Shown here piece after piece: positions 52,507 to 64,000 of a stretch of 64,000 nucleotides of DNA. The notes below the pieces were generated by a model, which did not search any database, was not told the origin of the DNA, and saw only the letters and a list, made by a program, of their open reading frames with translations. The DNA comes from Letharia columbiana (taxonomy: Eukaryota; Ascomycota; Lecanoromycetes; Lecanorales; Parmeliaceae): NCBI RefSeq assembly GCF_014066305.1, contig NW_023501037.1, positions 620,001 to 684,000 on the forward strand, in the 5' to 3' direction. The position numbers and the translations under genes are program-made. The stretch's first letter is position 1. Every line of letters begins with the position of its first letter.

Positions 52507-52749
52507 CAAGCATTCGGAAGCAACACAGACTGATATCTTGCCAGGGGTGAGAGTTGAAAGAAGATTTTCTACGACAAAGTTGGAGAGATAAATGTAACCT
52601 ACAACTTCGCTACCAGGTTTCCCTGCTGAATGCGCTTCTTCGAATATTTATTGTGTGTTGTAGCAGCCAGCGGTAGCTCAATCTTCAACCTGGGGAAGAC
52701 AACCAATAATTGTGCTTTCATATCTGACAATAGTATAATTTTTTTTCAC

Positions 52750-53005
52750 GGCTCAGTGGTCTAGTGAGTAACCCACACCTTCATTTAGTCCGTTGGTTCC
52801 CCGCAGCTTTGCGACAGAATCTCTCTTAGTACCTTTTCGATTGACATAATACCGAATTCCAGGTCGTATGATTGCCGCTTCGGGATGTATCCAAAATGTC
52901 ATAGATGTTTGATATGTGGCAGGTCCCGGGGTAATTATTTAACATTCGATCTGTACTCATTGACATTGTTTCTAATCGAACATAGTTCAAATCCCGGCTG
53001 AGCCC
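52750..53005 (+). tRNA. tRNA-Pro(CGG) interrupted at three positions
   Basis: Removing 52767..52865 (99 nt; or the 3-nt-shifted GT-AG version 52764..52862), 52885..52914 (30 nt) and 52931..52985 (55 nt) leaves a standard 72-nt tRNA. The acceptor stem is GGCTCAG/CTGAGCC (7/7 pairs) with discriminator C. The D-arm is GTCTAGTGGTATGAT, the anticodon stem GCCGC/GTGGC (4 Watson-Crick pairs and one G-T), the loop TTCGGGT with anticodon CGG, variable GGTC, and the T-arm CCGGG-TTCAAAT-CCCGG (5/5). The middle insertion is at the canonical 37/38 site. The first is in the D-loop and the third exactly between positions 53 and 54. The sequence closely follows eukaryotic tRNA-Pro. A-box-like TGGTCTAGTG and B-box-like AGTTCAAATCC remain contiguous, and a T5 terminator follows. 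It could be a pseudogene, but every stem is intact. Confidence 0.85.
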
Positions 53006-53008
53006 GCG

Positions 53009-53013
53009 TTTTT
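53009..53013 (+). terminator. RNA polymerase III terminator (T5)
   Basis: TTTTT three bases after the discriminator of the tRNA-Pro, as expected for a functional Pol III gene. Confidence 0.8.
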
Positions 53014-53588: not shown

Positions 53589-56439
53589 CTATCTATCTTT
53601 CTTCTAAAGTAATAGCGATTTATTTATTAATTATACTAAATATATTATTAAGAAGTTAGTAGTTATAGCTAAAGAAGCTTACTACTTAAAAGATTATTTA
53701 AAAAAAAATCTTTTACTTATATAAAGACTAATTTAATTAGATTAAATAAGAATTTAAAGAAAATAAATATCTTTAATATATTAAAAGGAATAGACTCTAG
53801 ACTAAATCTCTTTTATATTCTTACTAATTTAATATTAGCTATATACTTCTTAACTTTAAATTTAGATAATATTTAAAGTTAAATTATTATAAGTAAGTTA
53901 TAGATATATTATCGTTTAGAAGAACTCGAGAACTTTAATAAAAAGATTTTAAATATTAGTAAAGCTAGATTATTCATATAATATAAGAGAAAGCATTTTA
54001 TCTTTAAAAGATATATTATTAAATTTAATTTAAGTTATATTAAAGTATAACTTATAAATATTATTAAAAAAGAGTTAATTATAATCTTTATCTTTATTAT
54101 TAACTTATAGAATTTTATAAAAAGCGCTATCGAAACTTTTAATACTTAATATAATAAATTAAAGATATTAATAGAAAGCTTTCGAATTACTAATTATAAT
54201 ATTAAGGTGCTTTAATAATAAAATAAAGAACTCGATTATAATATTACTTAAATTAAGATAAAGATATTAATAATTAATATCTAACTAAGTAATAATAATA
54301 ATTAATTATTTTATAAGCGAGAAACTAATAATAAATTTTAAGATTTACGTGATAGATATCGTATTAATACTATAGAACTTATTAAAGAAAATAAAAAACT
54401 TAAGTAAGACTTAAGATATAAAGAGTAATAGCTAAAGAAGTAATAATCTCTTATATTAGCTATTTTAAAAAACTTCGATAAAAAGAATATAGAGGTTATA
54501 TCTTATTAGCTAAGTATTTCTATTAATAGTATTTATCGAAATTTATATTATACCTCTATTATAAATTATATAGAGAATATAGAATTAAATAAATAATACC
54601 TCGACGTCTCGAATTTCTATAATATTAATAATCGAGATAAATAGAATAGCTAATATTAATATCTTAAAGCGAAGTTTAGATAAAGCGCTATAATCTTTCT
54701 TATTAAACTTAAGAAAATCGATTATATATAAGATTATTATAAGTCTATTATATATAACGTTATTAAAATAAGAATAAACGAAGATATCTTAGATTTATAT
54801 TAAATCGTCTAAGAAATAATTAATAAATTAAATAATATATTCGAAATATATAATAAGATTACTAAATCGAATACTAAGATATTTAATTCTAAATTTAATA
54901 TAAGAGTAATAGATAAGAAGAAATCGTTTAAGAACTTCTACGCACGATTCTCTATAGCTATTACTTCCTTAAAATTTACTAAAATTTATAAGATATTTAA
55001 TCTAAAACGATTAATCTCTATACGTCTAAGATATCGAATTTTAGAATAACCTTTTAATACTTTTCGAGAATTAGTTATTTTTCTATAAGTAATAAATATA
55101 AACTTACGAGTTATTAATAATATATTAGATTTAAAGAGTAAGAAAGAAATTAATAAAACTAATAATAATTATAAAAACTTTACTTTCTCGAATAATTAGC
55201 GTAATACTTTATTTACTAAAAGAAATAATAATATTACTATCGAAAATTCTTATATATAAGAATATAAGTATTTTAAATTATTAGTAAATAGAATTCGAAA
55301 AGAAGATAGATATTTTAAGTATTTAAAGATTAAATATTATTTTAGCGATAATAGTACTTTATATAAGAATATAAACTTATTAATAAAAGAATAAGTTAAT
55401 ATAATTCTAAAAGCCGTCGGCGTTAAGAAGAATATCTCTATTAAATTATTATAAGAATTAAAAAACTAAATATCTCTAGTTAAGTTGTTATTAAGGATTT
55501 AAAAGCCTTATATATAAAGATTAAAGAGTTAGAAATAGAAAGAATACTCGCTTTCGTCTCTCTATTCGCGTATACTATTATTATCGAAACCTCTTTATAA
55601 AATAGACGCTAATTAGACTTTTATAGAAAAATTATTATATTAATAGAATAAGTTAAGATTAATTATCTCTTAAATACTAAAGTTTTAATATTAAGTTTTA
55701 TAAATATATCTTTTATTAAAGTAAATAAACTATTTAAGATAATACTAATATAATTTTATAAATTATAATTAATTAATAATAAATCTATCTTTATACTCGA
55801 TATTATATATATAACTTTAATAAAACTCGCCTTAAAAGATTATATAGAAGAATTTTAATACTTAATTATCTTATTAGAACGATTTAATATTATTCTAGAT
55901 ATACTATAATTAGAATAATATAACTCTTATATATTCTTTAAATCTAAAATTATTATATTTAATTTAGATTATTATATATTTAACTATTTATTATATAATA
56001 AACTCGTTATTATTTAGAGTAATAATAAGTTTTTAAAAAAGAATTTAAATTATATAGTAAAGATTATATTTAAAGAAAAGAATATAATAAAGATCTTCGC
56101 TTATATCTTTATTAAGATAATTAAAAAATTAGAGAATTAAATTATTATTATATAGTCTTAAAACTTCGAATAACTTTCTAATTTTATTAATAAAGAAGTA
56201 AAGTTTATTATTAACGTCGCCGCTATTATAGCGAAAGATTACGAGAAATTCTTTTATAAATTAAAAAAGAAATTATTAACTACGAAATAGCTATAAAAAT
56301 AAGTTCTTATAGTATATTACGAATAACTAGATATTTAAAATCCTATTAAAGCTAATAAACTTTCCTCTTATCGCTTTATTAATTACGAAATAGATCTTAA
56401 GAAAGAAGTTATTCTACTATCGAAAAGGGTTTATAAGCT

Positions 56440-57080
56440 CTTTAGAGACTAGATATTAGTTATAAAGAAATATATCGATAAAATATTAGAAAAAGGCTAT
56501 ATTAGATCGAGTACTTCTCTCTACGTAGTACTTATTCTAATTATAAAAAAACTCGATAAGAAATTTAGATTATATATAAACTATAAAGTCTTTAATATAC
56601 TTATTATCTTTAATCGAAATACTCTCTTATTAATTAAAAAGACTCTCGCTAAATTATATACGACGAGAATATATAGTAAATTTGATATTATAACCGCTTT
56701 TAACGAAATTAGAGTAAAAAAAAGTTATAAAGAAAAAATCGTATTTCTTATTTAATATCGTCTATTTAAATATATAATAATATCTTTTGAGTTATATAAT
56801 ATCTCTATTACTTTTTAAATATTTATTAATAATACCTTACGCGAATATTTAAATATATTCTATATTATCTATTTAGACGATATTCTTATCTATAATAATA
56901 TTAAAAATAAATATATTTAGTATATAGAAAAGATATTAAAAAAACTTCGATAAGTTAATCTCTATCTTAATATTAATAAATACGACTTTTATATTATTAG
57001 AGTTAAATATCTAAAATTAATTATTATTACGAAAGAAGTAGAAATAAATATAAAGAAAATTAAGGCTATTACTTAATAAA
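56440..57080 (+). pseudogene. Reverse-transcriptase remnant of element A
   Basis: In one frame with stop codons one reads GYIRSSTS near 56,494, a KFDIITAFNEIR-like catalytic block near 56,678, and the active-site motif YLDDILIY at 56870..56893. Spacing is as in Ty3/Gypsy RTs. Multiple TAA codons replace former Gln codons. Not functional. Confidence 0.85.
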
Positions 57081-58259
57081 AGAAATTTAGATATATTAAA
57101 AATATATAAGTATTTCTAAAATTCGTTAATTTCTATTAAAAGTTTATTACGAGGTACTCTAAAATTACTATATCTCTAATAAATTTTATTTATACTTAAT
57201 AGAAGAAAGACTTTATCTATTTATAAGCTTAAGAATATCTTAAATAACTCGCTTTCGAAATATTTAAGAAAGCTTTTACTACTATCTCTATACTTATATA
57301 TTTTAATTTAAATAAAAAGACTTAATTAGAAATAAACGCGTTTAATTTTATAGTTATTATTATTCTATTATAAGAAGATAAAGATAAAATACTTAAATCT
57401 ATAATATTTCTTTTTAAGAAGATATCTTCTATAGAGTGTAATTATAATATTTATAATAAGGAATTTATAGTTATAATATAGGCTTTTAAGAAATAATATT
57501 CTAAGTTAATTAATACTCTTATCGAGAATTCTATTAAAGTTATTTTAGATTATAAAAACTTATAATACTTTATATTATTTAAATAACTTAACTTCCGCTA
57601 AATAAGATAAATAGAGTTTCTATTTAAATTTAACTTTCGTATTATCTATCGCTTAGAGAAATAAAGTATTAAATCTAATAATCTTATTTAATAAGTAGAA
57701 GATTTATTTAAAAATAAGGATAACGATTATATCTATTATTAATATCGTATAATTCTTAAAGATAATAATCTTAACGAAGATATTAAGAATATTATATATC
57801 TAGTTATTATACTTCTAGATAATATAAAAGAAAGTATTATCTCTCTAATTATAATATTATATAAATTTAATAAATAAGATAATATTAATAATAAGAAGTC
57901 TAATAAAGAATTATTATTAGAGGCCTCGATAAAGACTTCTTAAGAGGAGTCCTTAGAAGAATCGAGAGAAGTCTTTACTACTAATACTTCTAAGTTATTA
58001 TATTAAATAAAAAACGCTTATAATTATAATAATATTATTTAAAAAATTATATAATTAAAGATATCTAGATAGAGAAAGCTATTATTTAAAATAATTAAAA
58101 ATAATCTTAAGCTAAAATTAAGTAATTATTATCTTTACGATAAGTTATTATATATTAATAATAGATTATATATATCGAATATTTTCGAATTACGAATTAA
58201 AATTATTAGAGATATTTATAACTCTTTATTTAAAGATTACGTTAATAGATTATTAATCT

Positions 58260-58656
58260 ATAATAAAGTAAATAGACTTTACTATTAATTAAGAATAACG
58301 GATTTTATTACCCGCTATATTAAGAGCTATTATATCTATAAAAGATCTAAGACTTATAAAGAGAATAAGTAAGATTTACTTAAATCTCTTTCTATTCTTA
58401 AATAATATTAATAAGATATTTCTATTAACTTTATTATATTATTATCTATTTATCTTAGATATAAATACCTTTATTAATATATTATAATAGTTATAAATAA
58501 ACTTAATAAAAAGAAGAAATTCGGTTTTTTTAAACTTTCTAAAAGTAGAGATAGTAGTTTAGATCTTTATCGAATTCATATAGCGAGAGAAAGAATATTT
58601 ATTCACTATTATTTTCAATCGAGATATCTAATTTATAATATATTTCTAGAGAAAAC
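58260..58656 (+). pseudogene. Integrase remnant, first part (broken by an insertion)
   Basis: Reads as the zinc-finger end (SYYICKRSK near 58,329) and the start of the catalytic core (DISINFI near 58,414; the first Asp of DD35E). The frame is interrupted at 58657 by unrelated sequence. Confidence 0.75.
58411..58656 (+). repeat. Direct duplication, copy 1
   Basis: About 246 bp of integrase sequence repeated as 60010..60267 on the other side of the inserted segment. Differences are mostly transitions; the copies diverge strongly only near 58,612/60,206, where copy 2 carries a patch resembling the insert. Confidence 0.85.
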
Positions 58657-60000
58657 TGTTACGAGCGTACCCTTGACACACCACTCAGCCCTATGGCTAG
58701 CGGGCCTTGGCGGAGGCATCCCCTACCATATCATGCCTCCTTCCCACATACATAGTTCGGTAGCCTTATTATCCTATCTACCTCACCCATACTGGTATCA
58801 CACCTATGCTGGTCCTGACATTATAATAAGGCTCCTTCGTACACCCGGCGAAGAGAAACACATACGGGCCAATCAACGCACACTCACGCCTATTCGGATT
58901 AGCAGACGAATGATTAATAAATAAACGCGCTGGCAAAGGCTTTATCAAGATACTAAGTTGAGATATCAAGATATCAAGTTAAGATATCAAGATACGAACT
59001 TAAGGTATCGTATCCCTAAGTAAGCCCACCATATAGGTAACTTAATTCCAAAGAGCCTAATAAAACAGCGGAACGGCCTCGTGACAGTGACGAGGGATAA
59101 ATAAGTACTAGATCATTCGTACTGCAGGCGAATCAGAAAGAAACTGACGGAAAATAATACCCCCTTACACCATAGTGAGCCTGCTATAATGACGACGGGA
59201 ACAAACCCGGTAATACGATTACGATTCGACCTCTTTACTAAGCATATCGACAATATACACAATAAGCCTGCTACAATGGCAGCAAACGTACAATCTCTTC
59301 ACTGAGCACGTCGACAACATATATAGTGAGCCTGCTATTAAATGGCATTCAACACATTCGATTCTTCCCAGCCTCCTACCTCCCTACCAGACCCTACAAA
59401 TCGACGAGTGCATGAGTTTACGGAAGTGGTTTATATTAGTTAGGTTATTAGCTGCTGAGTACTCGCTATGATAGCTTAGGACGGGTATATAGAACTGGTA
59501 GCTTAGGACGGGTAGGCCTACGGGGTACTAGCAGTCGAAGCGGGTACATGGGATTGGCAGTCGAAGCGGTAAGCTTACAAGGCGGATAGATGTAATGGAT
59601 AGCACTACGAAGCAAGATAACTACGAGTTAAGGCAAAGGAGATGGAATAAAACGGAGGATAGATTTTTAATGACAAGAGCATGGGAGACATAGGGTAAAT
59701 CTATAGTGAAGCTCCCAGCCAGGCTGCCAACAGGTGTTGAAGGATAACATATGCATACGTTGGATTTTCTTTAATTCTATCGAAGGACTATAGCAAGAAG
59801 GACTATAGCAAGAAGACTAGGTAAGAAAAGGAACTCGGAGAATCTTGCTGGTACGCAGGTAAGATATAGTTATATCTCCAGGATCTCTACAGAACAATGT
59901 GGGTATCCGCATGGATGGCACAGTCAAGACCAGCATGCGATCCGATGTTTTCGACTACTACCACTACACCTCGGCAAATCGTCTCCGATCGAGGCCTGCA
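58657..60000 (+). mobile_element. Non-RIPped LTR-like segment (element B copy) inside element A
   Basis: About 1.34 kb of ordinary base composition in an AT-rich block. It starts TGTTACGAGCG, identical to the fragment at 53165. There is no protein-coding frame of note. Internal repeats include three AGCCTGCTA-type units (59178, 59265, 59330), a GATATCAAG series (58,940-59,000), doubled TAGCTTAGGACGGGTA and GCAGTCGAAGCGG units (59,472-59,570) and doubled GGACTATAGCAAGAAG (59,784-59,816). This repeat-rich non-coding make-up fits an LTR or solo LTR. The right end is not defined by a clear CA terminus. Confidence 0.65.
59172..59347 (+). repeat. Degenerate tandem array inside the element B copy
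   Basis: Units of about 65-88 bp each starting near (G/A)AGCCTGCTA and containing CTCTT(T/C)ACT(A/G)AGCA. Differences between units are chiefly C/T and G/A, suggesting mild RIP. Confidence 0.65.
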
Positions 60001-60009
60001 TAATACTAT

Positions 60010-60267
60010 ATAAGATATTTCTATTAACTTTATTATATTATTACCTATTTATCTCAGATATAAATATCTTTATTAATATATTATAATAGTTATAACATAA
60101 ACTTAATAAAAAGAAGAAATTCGGTTTTTTTAAACTTTCTAAAAGTAGAGATAGTAGTTTAGATCCTTTATCGAATTCATATAGCGAGAGAAAGAATATT
60201 TATCCTTACTATCCTATTTACCTCACCCATCGAGATATTTAATTTATAATATATTTCTAGAGAAGAC
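60010..60267 (+). repeat. Direct duplication, copy 2
   Basis: Second copy of the 246-bp integrase stretch (copy 1 at 58411..58656). It continues into the rest of the integrase, so this copy is the one contiguous with downstream element A sequence. It contains a 27-nt patch near 60,206-60,232 (CCTTACTATCC, TTTACCTCACCCAT) matching the insert at 58,764-58,790 at 25 of 27 positions. Confidence 0.85.
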
Positions 60268-60960
60268 TATATAAAAGAATTAAAATTAAACTTAAGCTCT
60301 TTACTACGTTTTATCTTAAAATTAATAAATAAATAAAGAACGCTAACGCTATTCTAAAGTAATATCTTAAAATTTATATTAATTATAATTAAGATAATTA
60401 AGTAAATCTATTATTAATAATAGAGTTTAAAATTAATTTCGATAAGAATACCTTATTAAGCGTATTATTATTCCTTCTTATTAAAGAATATATTCCTCGC
60501 TCGAGAATAGAATTCTTAACTTTTTAAAATTAATTCGCTAATTAAAAAGTAAAGAGAAATATTAAATTAATTAATAGATTTATCGAGAAGATAAATATTA
60601 TAAGAAATTATTTAAGAAGTTAGCTTAAATAATTATAAGCTTTATAGAAAGAATAAGCTAACTATTATCGGCTTTTAGTATTAGAATTTAGAGTCGAAGA
60701 TATAATTATACTTAATAGAAGAAATATTAAAATTATACGCCTTAGTAAATTACTAAATTATAAAAATTTCGAATTATTTAAAATTATTAAAGCTTTAAAT
60801 AATTTCGCTTATAAGTTAGAACTCTTAATTTTTATAAATAATATTTACTCTATCTTTTATTTATAATTATTATATCTCGATAATAATAACCCACTATTAG
60901 AATAGATTAAGTCTCCACTACCGCCTATTAATATTAACGAGAAAGATAAAATCTATAATA
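60268..60960 (+). pseudogene. Integrase remnant, second part
   Basis: Near 60,305 the frame reads FYLKINK-stop-IKNANAIL, the RIP product of the conserved integrase FYPETDGQTENANAIL region: Glu to Lys, Thr to Ile, Asp to Asn and Gly to Lys, with Gln to stop. This gives a direct record of both C-to-T and G-to-A RIP. Confidence 0.8.
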
Positions 60961-61363
60961 TTAAAGAAATAGTTTAATCTAAGTTAGATAAATAAAAGAA
61001 TAATCCCTTAACTAGTAAGAGGGGATATCTTATATATAAAATTAGATATAGAGGCCTCGAGATCGAGGAAAATCTATTCTAGTAATTATTTACGGATATA
61101 GTAGAATATTCGAATCTAATAGTAGACTTTTACTATTATTACCCCGAGGCCGTTAATTCTCATTTATTATTTAAAAGACTTTTAGAATAGTCTTTATTAT
61201 TAGCGCTATTAATCTATAATAGCTATATTAACTTATAAAAAAACCTTAATACTATAATAAAATATTAAGTTAATATATTTAAGAATATTACTTTATATAC
61301 GCCTAGGTATACTTTTTATAAGATCGATATCTGCTATATAATAGTCGTCGTCGGAGCTTTAAA

Positions 61364-61376
61364 TTAAAGAGAGAGG
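61364..61376 (+). promoter_or_regulatory. Polypurine tract of element A
   Basis: A purine run (TTAAAGAGAGAGG) directly before the 3' LTR start TGTCACGG, the position of the plus-strand primer in LTR retroelements. Confidence 0.6.
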
Positions 61377-61379
61377 TAA

Positions 61380-61568
61380 TGTCACGGTTTTAATAATCTT
61401 ACGATTTTACTTATTTGTATTATAGCCTAATTAAGCTTAGCGTATTAAGGCCTTTTAATCTTTCTATCTTACTATAAAGCTTATACTTATAATAATCCTA
61501 TATAAATAGTATTCTCTTTATACTATAATATAGAGTTATTATATATATTATTAAGTCTCTAATATAAT
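61380..61568 (+). repeat. 3' LTR of element A
   Basis: Starts TGTCACGGTTTTAATAATC and matches the 5' LTR over about 189 bp. Less RIP-mutated than the 5' copy at its first bases. The end is approximate. Confidence 0.8.
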
Positions 61569-62401
61569 CTAATTATACTTAAGATATAAGACGGAAATTA
61601 TAAAATTATAACGTTATAGAAATTATAATAATATTATATATTTAAAAAATTAGATCTTATATTTCTATTATAATAGTATCTATTAAATCTTAAAATTGTA
61701 ATATTATTAACGCTATATTAAAATTATACTTTAGAGAGATTAAATTCTATACTTCTATCGTAGTAATATCTATTAAATTTAACTATCGTAGTATTATTAA
61801 TATTATATTAGAATTATAACTTTATAGAGTTATATTTTATAAATTACTATATTAAAATTATAAGATTATTAGATATATATAAAAAACTTAAAATCTATTA
61901 AAAGTTTTTAAGAAATTATAAATTCTCGCGAGTTATAAATTTACGATAATATATTCTATTTAAGTTAACTTTATCTTATTAATTTATCTTTATTTATATT
62001 ATTCTATAAATACTATATATTTTATAAGATTATTAATAACTCTTACTTACTTCGTCTTTAATTTTCTCTATTATTATTTTATTATAATCGTAGTTTATAC
62101 CTTATAGGGGCCGATAGTACGAAAGACGATATATCTATAGATAGTGTATATAGCGTAGATAACTAGTTTTTAATATTGATTATCTCCACTATTCAATTAT
62201 AATAAACATTTCCTCGACTAGTTAATAGACCGTTTTAGATAATATATATCTCTACGATTAGAGAGTCGAATTAGTTATTTTTATAAACCTTCTATTAAGA
62301 TAAATAATTCGTCTCGAATAACTCTTCGTTTTATTTGACTTTATAATTTATATAACTCTATATCCGATTAATAGTTATCGACCTATTATATATTACTTAA
62401 A

Positions 62402-62476
62402 AATCTATTAAAGATTTATTAAAGATCTATTAGAAATCTATTAAATATCTATTAAAGATCTATTAAAGATCTTTTA
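62402..62476. repeat. Short tandem repeat, TCTATTAAAGA-like unit
   Basis: About six 11-12 bp units with single-base changes within the RIPped region. Confidence 0.75.
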
Positions 62477-63225
62477 ATTCTATCTCTATAGATATCGAAT
62501 TATTTTAATTAAGTACTACTTTTATTTTATATAATAAACTAGATCTAATTAATACTAATTTATATACGTATCTTATATATTAATAATTACTATTATTTAT
62601 AAAATATATTATATAAATAAAAGTAGTTACCCTCTTTACATCCCTCTAATCTTATCTATTTTATTCTCTTATCTATCTTATAATATTTATTTAATCTTTA
62701 ACTATTATAAGTTAATTAGTAATCTTTTATTAGTAAAATATTTATAGAGTAATATACTAAGATTAAAAAGCGATATATATTTAATAATATTTATATACTT
62801 CTTATATCTACTAGATTAAGTAATTAATAATATTAAAGTATATATAATAAAAGCGTAGATAAATTATATATTTTAATTATACTATATTATCTATATTAAA
62901 TAAAATTTTATTTATAATTTAATCGCGTTATAATTAGTATATCTCTTCTATTTATAATATTAACTTATTATATATTAGAAGACTCTTTAAACTTTAAATA
63001 TAAGCGCGCTAAGAATAAAGAAATAAAAAGAAATATATAATAGAAATATAGTATTATTAGATAGGCGATATATTAAAGAGAAAGCTAATATAGAAAATAA
63101 TTTATTAACTTAATTCTCGCTAATAATATAAAAAAATATACTTACTTTTTAATAATAGAAAAGAGAAAAAAAATTAATCTATTTATAATATAAGATTAGC
63201 TATTTAGATTATTATATTATATAAA

Positions 63226-63321
63226 TATTTTTAATATATCTATAAATTAGACTTATAAGTTATTTAATATTATATAGATATTTTTAATATATTTATAAAT
63301 TAGACTTATAAGTTATCTAAT
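63226..63321. repeat. Tandem duplication, 53-bp unit
   Basis: Two copies in direct tandem, each containing TATTTTTAATATAT and TTAGACTTATAAGTTAT, with a few differences. Confidence 0.75.
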
Positions 63322-64000
63322 TTATAGAATTATAAAAATTATTTATATCCTCTATATCCCCGTTATAATTAACTTATTATTATTATATAATTTAGAATAA
63401 AAGATATTTATATATAAGTCTATTAACGTATTAATGCTTATTACTATAAATATAAATTATAATAATTAATTATCTTTAGTAATTATTAATTTAAAAGAAA
63501 TATTAATTTAGATATAATAATAAATAATATAAAAGCTAAAAGTGTAAAAACGCTAAATAATTATTAATAAAATATAAAAATATTATTATATAAAAGAGCG
63601 CTATTAGCGAATATAAAGAGAGTATAAGAGACTAAGAATAAAAGAGATATCTTAGAAATAATTTAGAAATAACTTATTATACGTTAGAGATATCTTATAG
63701 CTACTTATTATATTTATTTATATAATTAGATTACAAATTAGCTATATCTAATTATTATTATTATAATATAAAAGAATTTAAAAAAAAGATAGTTTATCCC
63801 TCTAATACTTTCTATTTTAATTTATATTAAAATTATTATATAGCTATTATATAAAGACGTTAATATTATAATAGCTAGCTTTTTAAAAAAAGAAATATCT
63901 TAGAAAGTCGTATTAGTACGCTTTTTATATATTCTTATAAATCTAATATTTTAAGTTTACTTTTTCGCTAGATTAGTTAATTTATAGTAAATAAAATATA

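Follow-up and report, generated by a model that had tools for sequence, protein, structure and literature searches.

How can a tRNA be made from a gene that is interrupted three times, and twice so at ectopic positions? This question is raised by the tRNA-Pro(CGG) gene on the plus strand of the window, by which we mean the whole stretch of 64,000 nt that was analysed. Exon 1 (52750..52763) covers tRNA positions 1-14 and forms the 7-bp acceptor stem with exon 4. It is followed by an ectopic intron of spliceosomal type with a length of 99 nt, which is located in the D-loop between positions 14 and 15 (intron 1, 52764..52862; GTGAGT...TTGAC...TTCCAG). Exon 2 (52863..52884) comprises the rest of the D-loop down to position 37, including the anticodon CGG, and is separated from exon 3 (52915..52930, positions 38-53) by a 30-nt intron at the canonical 37/38 site (52885..52914), which is expected to be processed by the tRNA splicing endonuclease. 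The second ectopic intron of spliceosomal type has a length of 55 nt and lies at site 53/54 (intron 3, 52931..52985; GTAATT...CTAAT...CATAG), directly upstream of exon 4 (52986..53005), which extends from the T-loop to the discriminator position 73. Joining of the four exons (14, 22, 16 and 20 nt) results in 72 nt. A T5 run downstream of the gene (53009..53013) is a likely Pol III terminator, and the sequence TATAAT upstream of it (52734..52739) could be a TATA-like Pol III element.

The original prediction, a tRNA-Pro(CGG) gene in four pieces with insertions of 99, 30 and 55 nt, was borne out by ARAGORN, which called tRNA-Pro(CGG) when the exons were fully joined and found no tRNA in the unspliced locus. 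Removal of only the two ectopic inserts gave the same tRNA ends, with the anticodon misread as Met(CAT), and a scan of the window with ARAGORN and Rfam found no tRNA. The coordinates also agree with the proposed normal position of the 30-nt insert and with the ectopic position of the other two, and a T5 terminator indeed follows the gene. The joined product has the cloverleaf stems, the CGG anticodon and the T-loop motif TTCRA. It had been described as fully paired; this holds for the acceptor stem, the anticodon stem (with one G-U) and the T stem, but the D-stem contains a T13.T22 non-pair and a G-U.

The borders of the 55-nt insert are well defined by the tRNA structure, since among 6955 possible removals the best tRNA score is shared by two only, the GT-AG placement and its one-base shift. 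The placement of the 99-nt insert is not fixed in this way: the best score lies 1.0 above that of GT-AG, whose own score is equalled or exceeded in 55 of 13929 placements, two of these 55 being GT/GC-AG. A branch-like A is found 18 nt (TTGAC) and 10 nt (CTAAT) from the ends of introns 1 and 3, respectively; intron 1 thus has TTGAC instead of a CTRAY site, and the donor of intron 3, GTAATT, departs from GTRNGT. With GT-AG ends at intron 1 the D-loop of the joined tRNA reads AGTCGTA, i.e. G18 is absent and a C is present at position 18. Shifting the junction by 3 nt gives AGTGGTA, but then GT-AG is lost.

The last result leads to the question whether this particular copy is in good order. Since GT-AG joining removes G18, the Pro(CGG) copy may be weak, and since tRNA-Pro(TGG) (locus L096, with a 37/38 intron only) may read CCG, Pro(CGG) could be dispensable and decaying. 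It is thus conceivable, in our opinion unlikely but deserving attention, that ectopic introns of spliceosomal type are functional in most of the genes described below while the Pro(CGG) gene of the window is a decayed member of the set, whose D-loop intron no longer yields a good tRNA. In line with this, its template score of 28.6 is the lowest of 15 distinct genes (the others range from 29.26 to 32.1) and its 99-nt intron is an outlier in length. On the other hand, its acceptor, anticodon and T stems and its T-loop are intact, the intron at 53/54 is a clean GT-AG intron with CTAAT, and the TATA-like stretch and the T5 run are in place. Pro(CGG) may therefore be a weaker member, though the whole intron set is robust. 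Simple decay, which had been doubted from the beginning, is not the best reading of this gene.

Because the ectopic inserts of tRNA-Pro(CGG) bear spliceosomal marks, the other tRNA genes of the genome were examined for the same. The assembly comprises 52.2 Mb in 161 contigs; the nearest named relatives of a conserved protein encoded in the window are from Imshaugia (69% identity), Stereocaulon and Lecanora, which we take to be lichen-forming fungi. The tRNA genes were gathered by an Rfam scan and by B-box and T-arm patterns, followed by full reading of each. In the Rfam scan of the genome 63 of 1723 candidates were scored, and genes with short 37/38 introns were missed. The T-arm pattern was evaluated among the first 100 of its 194 matches, and two other patterns among the first 100 of 209 and of 220; the later contigs are thus covered by other patterns only. 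Forty T-arm places with a pairable T-stem were picked for reading. The contigs C94 and C110 contain tRNA hits at high density; they were considered mitochondrial and excluded. The resulting catalogue is non-exhaustive and biased to uninterrupted T arms, and many of its genes come from patterns demanding a downstream T4. As a matter of judgement, several loci were left out before counting because they represent A+T-rich relics or repeats or do not clearly have the structure of a nuclear tRNA: L040, L047 (two hits), L051 (three Rfam hits), L054, L055, L056, L120, L140, L093/L163, L107/L164 and L089/L111. Judged by eye to be chance matches or repeats were the B-box loci L009-L038 except L025 and L031, the loci L122-L161 except L122, L140 and L147, and also L094, L095, L099-L102, L110, L112, L113, L117-L119 and L121.

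In total, 30 loci were accepted as nuclear tRNA genes. Ectopic inserts, 21 distinct ones in total, are present in 16 of them, corresponding to 15 distinct genes; thus, the inserts are widespread in the genome, beyond what the original prediction had foreseen. In addition to Pro(CGG) (the window gene, L025), the interrupted genes are Thr(AGT) (L044), Thr(CGT) (L090), Ser(CGA) (L097 and its near-copy L098), Ser(GCT) (L105), Ser(AGA) (L053), Trp(CCA) (L057), Tyr(GTA) (L147), Leu(AAG) (L031), Arg(TCT) (L058), Arg(CCT) (L104), Gln(CTG) (L108), Lys(TTT) (L109), Lys(CTT) (L106) and Ala(TGC) (L122/L162). The recurrence of inserts in 14 other distinct genes, together with the placement result for Pro, means that the Pro pattern is more than chance. 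Lys(CTT) (G000:C33:162400-162836) harbours four GT-AG introns of 53, 52, 53 and 58 nt, i.e. 216 nt in a tRNA of 73 nt. Ala(TGC), on the minus strand of G000:C5, has one ectopic intron in its anticodon loop and another in the 3' strand of the acceptor stem; in consequence of the latter intron its last exon consists of CCA only, a T7 run is located approximately 17 nt beyond, and the acceptor stem contains one T.T mismatch after joining. According to the template fit, all but three of the 15 distinct interrupted genes carry an insert of 7-30 nt at 37/38. The 14 loci with no ectopic insert, which have either no insert at all or one only at or near 37/38, are L008, L039, L041, L042, L043, L045, L046 (anticodon uncertain), L048, L049, L050, L052, L091, L092 and L096. 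Nuclear genes for Asn, Asp, Cys, Phe, Val and initiator Met were not recognised in this incomplete and biased catalogue, and our guess is that interruption may be the cause. In one pattern scan of viral contigs for the Ser T-stem intron nothing was found.

When all inserts were removed in silico, each of the 15 loci tested (14 distinct genes, Ser(AGA) not included) was assigned its expected anticodon by ARAGORN. Removal of the ectopic inserts alone led to 13 expected anticodons out of 15, Pro and Leu being misread, and with the unspliced loci the expected anticodon was obtained in only three of 15 cases, while seven gave no call and five a wrong anticodon. Spliceosomal introns in tRNA genes would help to explain such misses by a standard tRNA finder. 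Ser(AGA) was checked by its template score, 29.7. The paralogous Ser(TGA) gene (L049) served as a control: its T-stem is unbroken and reads GCGCAGGTTCGAACCCTGC, whereas in Ser(CGA) GCGCAG is followed by a 55-nt GT-AG insert and then by GTTCAAATCCTGC, which corresponds to a split T-stem.

These data bear on a second alternative, namely that the interrupted copies are unexpressed relics and that intact genes located elsewhere do the work. The missing G18 of Pro(CGG) at GT-AG ends and the existence of Pro(TGG) with its 37/38 intron only would be compatible with it, and since the catalogue is incomplete, intact copies are possible for any anticodon. A relic beside an intact Pro(CGG) gene was looked for in part, by scanning for the uninterrupted Pro T-arm with up to three mismatches, and the only match was tRNA-Pro(TGG). 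However, after removal of the inserts each of the 15 genes shows a good match to the tRNA template (scores 28.6-32.1), which decay would not preserve. Further, intact genes for Trp, Lys, Gln and Tyr are absent from the 22 Rfam places outside C94 and C110 (from the same 63 scored candidates, with genes carrying short 37/38 introns missed), and the only U6 gene found is also split. We consider this alternative very improbable.

What kind of introns are the ectopic inserts? Their ends were at first set by eye and then tested by the tRNA-structure score alone, whereby all removals of 40-120 nt were compared and the other introns of the same gene were held fixed. As set by eye, 20 of the 21 introns have GT-AG ends and one has GC-AG ends (the second intron of Gln(CTG), donor GCAAGT). 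In the structure-only placement GT-AG was tied-best in 13 of 21 cases, and the next pair, GG-TA, which arises by a one-base shift, in six; within one point of the best score, GT-AG was found in 19 and the next pair in 11 of the 21. For seven of the 21 introns the GT/GC-AG placement was not tied-best by structure. A wider test with 20 introns and placements of 20-150 nt gave GT-AG or GC-AG as tied-best in 14 cases, the exceptions being the first Pro intron, the first Ala intron and the introns of Thr(CGT), Ser(GCT), Arg(CCT) and Tyr. Seven introns in the 20-intron test had at most four tied-best placements, and GT-AG was among these for five of them (the second ectopic intron of Pro, the first and third of Lys, the first of Gln and the second of Ala), but not for Thr(CGT) and the first Ala intron.

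In addition to their ends, the inserts share length and internal motifs. With the exception of the 99-nt Pro intron, all have a length of 49-58 nt (20 of 21). Seventeen of the 21 introns contain the motif CTRAY with its A located 8-40 nt from the intron end, compared with a mean of 3.46 and a maximum of 11 in 1000 shuffles, and 20 of the 21 contain the relaxed motif YTRAY (shuffle mean 7.64, maximum 15). At ten of the 17 CTRAY sites, the A is 11 nt from the intron end. Among 20 donors (Ser(AGA) not included), a purine at +3 and a G at +5 occur in 17 each and a T at +6 in 15. There are weaker members: the Arg(TCT) intron has no YTRAY, and the Arg(CCT) intron has the weak donor GTCGGT.

Other sources of the inserts were also considered. 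Between 50000 and 56000 no Rfam intron match to group I or group II introns was obtained at E values up to 5; the inserts are far shorter than the known introns of these groups. A common mobile source such as introner-like repeats is not supported, since BLAST among the 21 introns revealed matches of 8-21 nt only, with a best E value of 0.018, but decayed copies of such a source may be present. The reading of the 99-nt Pro insert as a twin intron was by eye not convincing.

The third alternative, that the ectopic introns are of the archaeal and red-algal kind, in which the tRNA splicing endonuclease recognises a bulge-helix-bulge with two 3-nt bulges flanking a 4-bp helix, could draw on the endonuclease-type 30-nt insert at 37/38 and on the several introns at odd positions in Cyanidioschyzon merolae (available text of PMC3978253 and PMC4090602), but it is hardly tenable, as a 4-bp central helix in register exists in only one of 21 inserts when all tied-best placements are considered (shuffle mean 2.6; at least one in 190 of 200 shuffles) and in none of 20 at the GT/GC-AG ends, and as neither GT...CTRAY...AG nor lengths that hardly deviate from about 53 nt would be expected of endonuclease introns. 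The parallel to archaea and a red alga, which had been drawn when the gene was first noticed, thus holds for the presence of multiple introns in one tRNA gene but not for their class: here the signals are spliceosomal and bulge-helix-bulge structures are not in excess.

If the ectopic inserts are spliceosomal introns, similar ones could be present in other genes of this organism. Indeed, the sole U6 gene found (L103, on G000:C17; 47 of 3742 candidates were scored) contains two, and its Rfam score is 41.2 bits at a cut-off of 44. The first U6 intron (L103:1476-1528, 53 nt, GT-AG) lies inside the ACAGAGA box and the second one (L103:1568-1624, 57 nt, GT-AG) follows GACACGCT. With the U6 gene split in this way, once within the catalytic ACAGAGA box, the production of U6 would itself depend on the spliceosome. 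Introns of the same design as in the tRNA genes were also detected in protein-coding genes. The actin mRNA contains an intron of 53 nt (GTAAGT...GGCTGATACAGGCTAG), next to two longer ones (75 and 121 nt) and a putative further intron represented by a 128-nt stretch; in an actin-related gene there is a candidate 53-nt intron (GTACGT...CACTGACTTTATGCAG), for which a 64-nt alternative exists. Altogether seven gaps between exons of actin-family genes were considered, and after filtering introns were proposed in two of them (53 or 64 nt, and 82 or 89 nt) and in none of the other five. The mRNA introns have the same motifs as the tRNA introns, in a sample too small for comparing length distributions.

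The transcription signals were inspected, too. A T5 or longer run is located downstream of 12 of 14 genes; Leu(AAG) has none in the 35 nt shown, and the Ser(CGA) stretch is short. As a T4 was demanded by the patterns that had led to several of these genes, the downstream T5 is not independent evidence. There are no T5 runs inside the 15 gene bodies, while 2.4 are expected from intron shuffles, with none in 7% of the trials. The absence of T5 from the introns fits transcription by Pol III, but is only suggestive; a Pol III origin is what one assumes for a tRNA by default, and it was weakly tested here. By eye, A+T-rich or TATA-like stretches are present 5' of many other interrupted tRNA genes. 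In both Lys(CTT) and Gln(CTG) an intron is located at site 10/11 and the A box is not continuous; therefore such upstream stretches may drive their transcription.

Based on the anatomy of the Pro(CGG) gene, the recurrence of the inserts in 15 genes, their splice-site and branch motifs, their likeness to some mRNA introns and the lack of a bulge-helix-bulge excess, we propose that spliceosomal introns were inserted into the tRNA genes and the U6 gene of this lichen-forming ascomycete. Very probably, tRNA-Pro(CGG) is a Pol III tRNA gene with one 37/38 intron and two U2-type introns that would be removed by the spliceosome, and thus a member of an invaded set. Pol III would transcribe the nuclear precursor, the spliceosome would remove the U2-type introns from the D-loop and from site 53/54, and the tRNA endonuclease together with a ligase would remove the 37/38 intron, presumably but not necessarily in this order. 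The product may be functional. The data suggest that the mRNA-splicing machinery would also be needed for tRNA production. With somewhat less confidence, but still as the probable case, we extend this to a large part of the nuclear tRNAs, among them those for Trp, Lys, Gln and Tyr, which would be made only after removal of one to four U2-type introns by the spliceosome. Thereby tRNA supply, U6 and mRNA splicing would be coupled in one loop, and two splicing machines would act on the same tRNA.

Related phenomena are known from other systems. According to the available parts of PMC8527467, which cites Bhattacharya et al. 2000, spliceosomal introns exist in the nuclear rDNA of lichen fungi and are removed by the machinery of the mycobiont. 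They resemble the introns described here in being U2-type, in residing in a non-coding RNA gene outside Pol II, and in occurring in lichen fungi; unlike there, where the host is rRNA, the hosts here are tRNA and U6, which are normally transcribed by Pol III, with a last exon of down to 3 nt. Small structured RNAs as hosts are also known from fungi: the accessible text of PMC5832005 (2017), which also cites Canzler 2016, describes introns in U6 snRNA and U3 snoRNA genes and states that, up to then, frequent interruption by an intron was known for no small structured RNA other than these two; tRNAs are not listed in that statement. The U6 gene of the present genome, with two introns, is in line with this. 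Several odd-position introns per tRNA gene are shared with archaea and Cyanidioschyzon merolae (PMC3978253 and PMC4090602, in the text available), but there they have a bulge-helix-bulge and are cut by the tRNA endonuclease, whereas here the helix is not enriched and the signals are spliceosomal. In the Guillardia theta nucleomorph (Kawach 2005, as cited in the available part of PMC3978253), ectopic eukaryotic tRNA introns exist, many of them without a defined bulge-helix-bulge; these are not called spliceosomal in that description.

The nuclear tRNA introns described in PMC3978253 and PMC4090602 (available text) are removed by protein endonuclease and ligase. Our literature search yielded no report of spliceosomal tRNA introns; most subscription papers and preprints lay outside it and earlier reports are possible. 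Such introns are not reported in the available parts of PMC8527467, PMC4090602, PMC5832005, PMC11386357, PMC3978253 and PMC6652019. The kind of intron is already known, and its home in tRNA genes and a spliceosome-dependent route to tRNA would be new. If true, a second removal route for tRNA introns exists, and Pol III transcripts besides U6 can be substrates of the spliceosome. Since the inserts are finely mapped in short and well-understood RNAs, spliceosomal intron gain becomes directly testable. Last but not least, it was proposed that the rDNA introns of lichens compete for splicing factors and thereby slow growth (PMC8527467, available part), and introns in tRNA and U6 genes bear on this proposal.

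Several additional observations were made. From 54001 to 64000, beginning approximately 1 kb downstream of the tRNA gene, the window has a GC content of 16-19% in four of five 2-kb bins and of 36% in the fifth; these A+T-rich blocks presumably resemble those created by repeat-induced mutation (RIP). The 13-mer AGGTTCGATTCCT accounts for nearly half of the T-arm matches listed (the first 100 of 194), and the loci L077 and L079 contain a repeat with GGTTCGATTCCTAATGGCGCTGGTACAATGGTGT or a close variant of it, a B-box-like motif and T-runs. This repeat, to which the AGGTTCGATTCCT places may belong, could be a short one related to tRNA. Another B-box-like motif that recurs in the genome, GGTTCGACCCCGTCATGTACGGGGCGAAAAACATTTT including variants, was found at no fewer than eight places (G000:C1:1787221, C3:1438778, C9:133648, C14:309788, C19:185385, C77:67246, C82:12030 and C83:4002). 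By eye, L089 (G000:C1:334680-335180) and L111 (G000:C3:1430680-1431109) are near-identical and contain a T-arm-like motif and T-runs. Finally, L163 (G000:C7) and L164 (G000:C34) harbour tRNA-like 3' halves, one of them Leu-like, with 5' exons not placed; perhaps they are further multi-intron genes.
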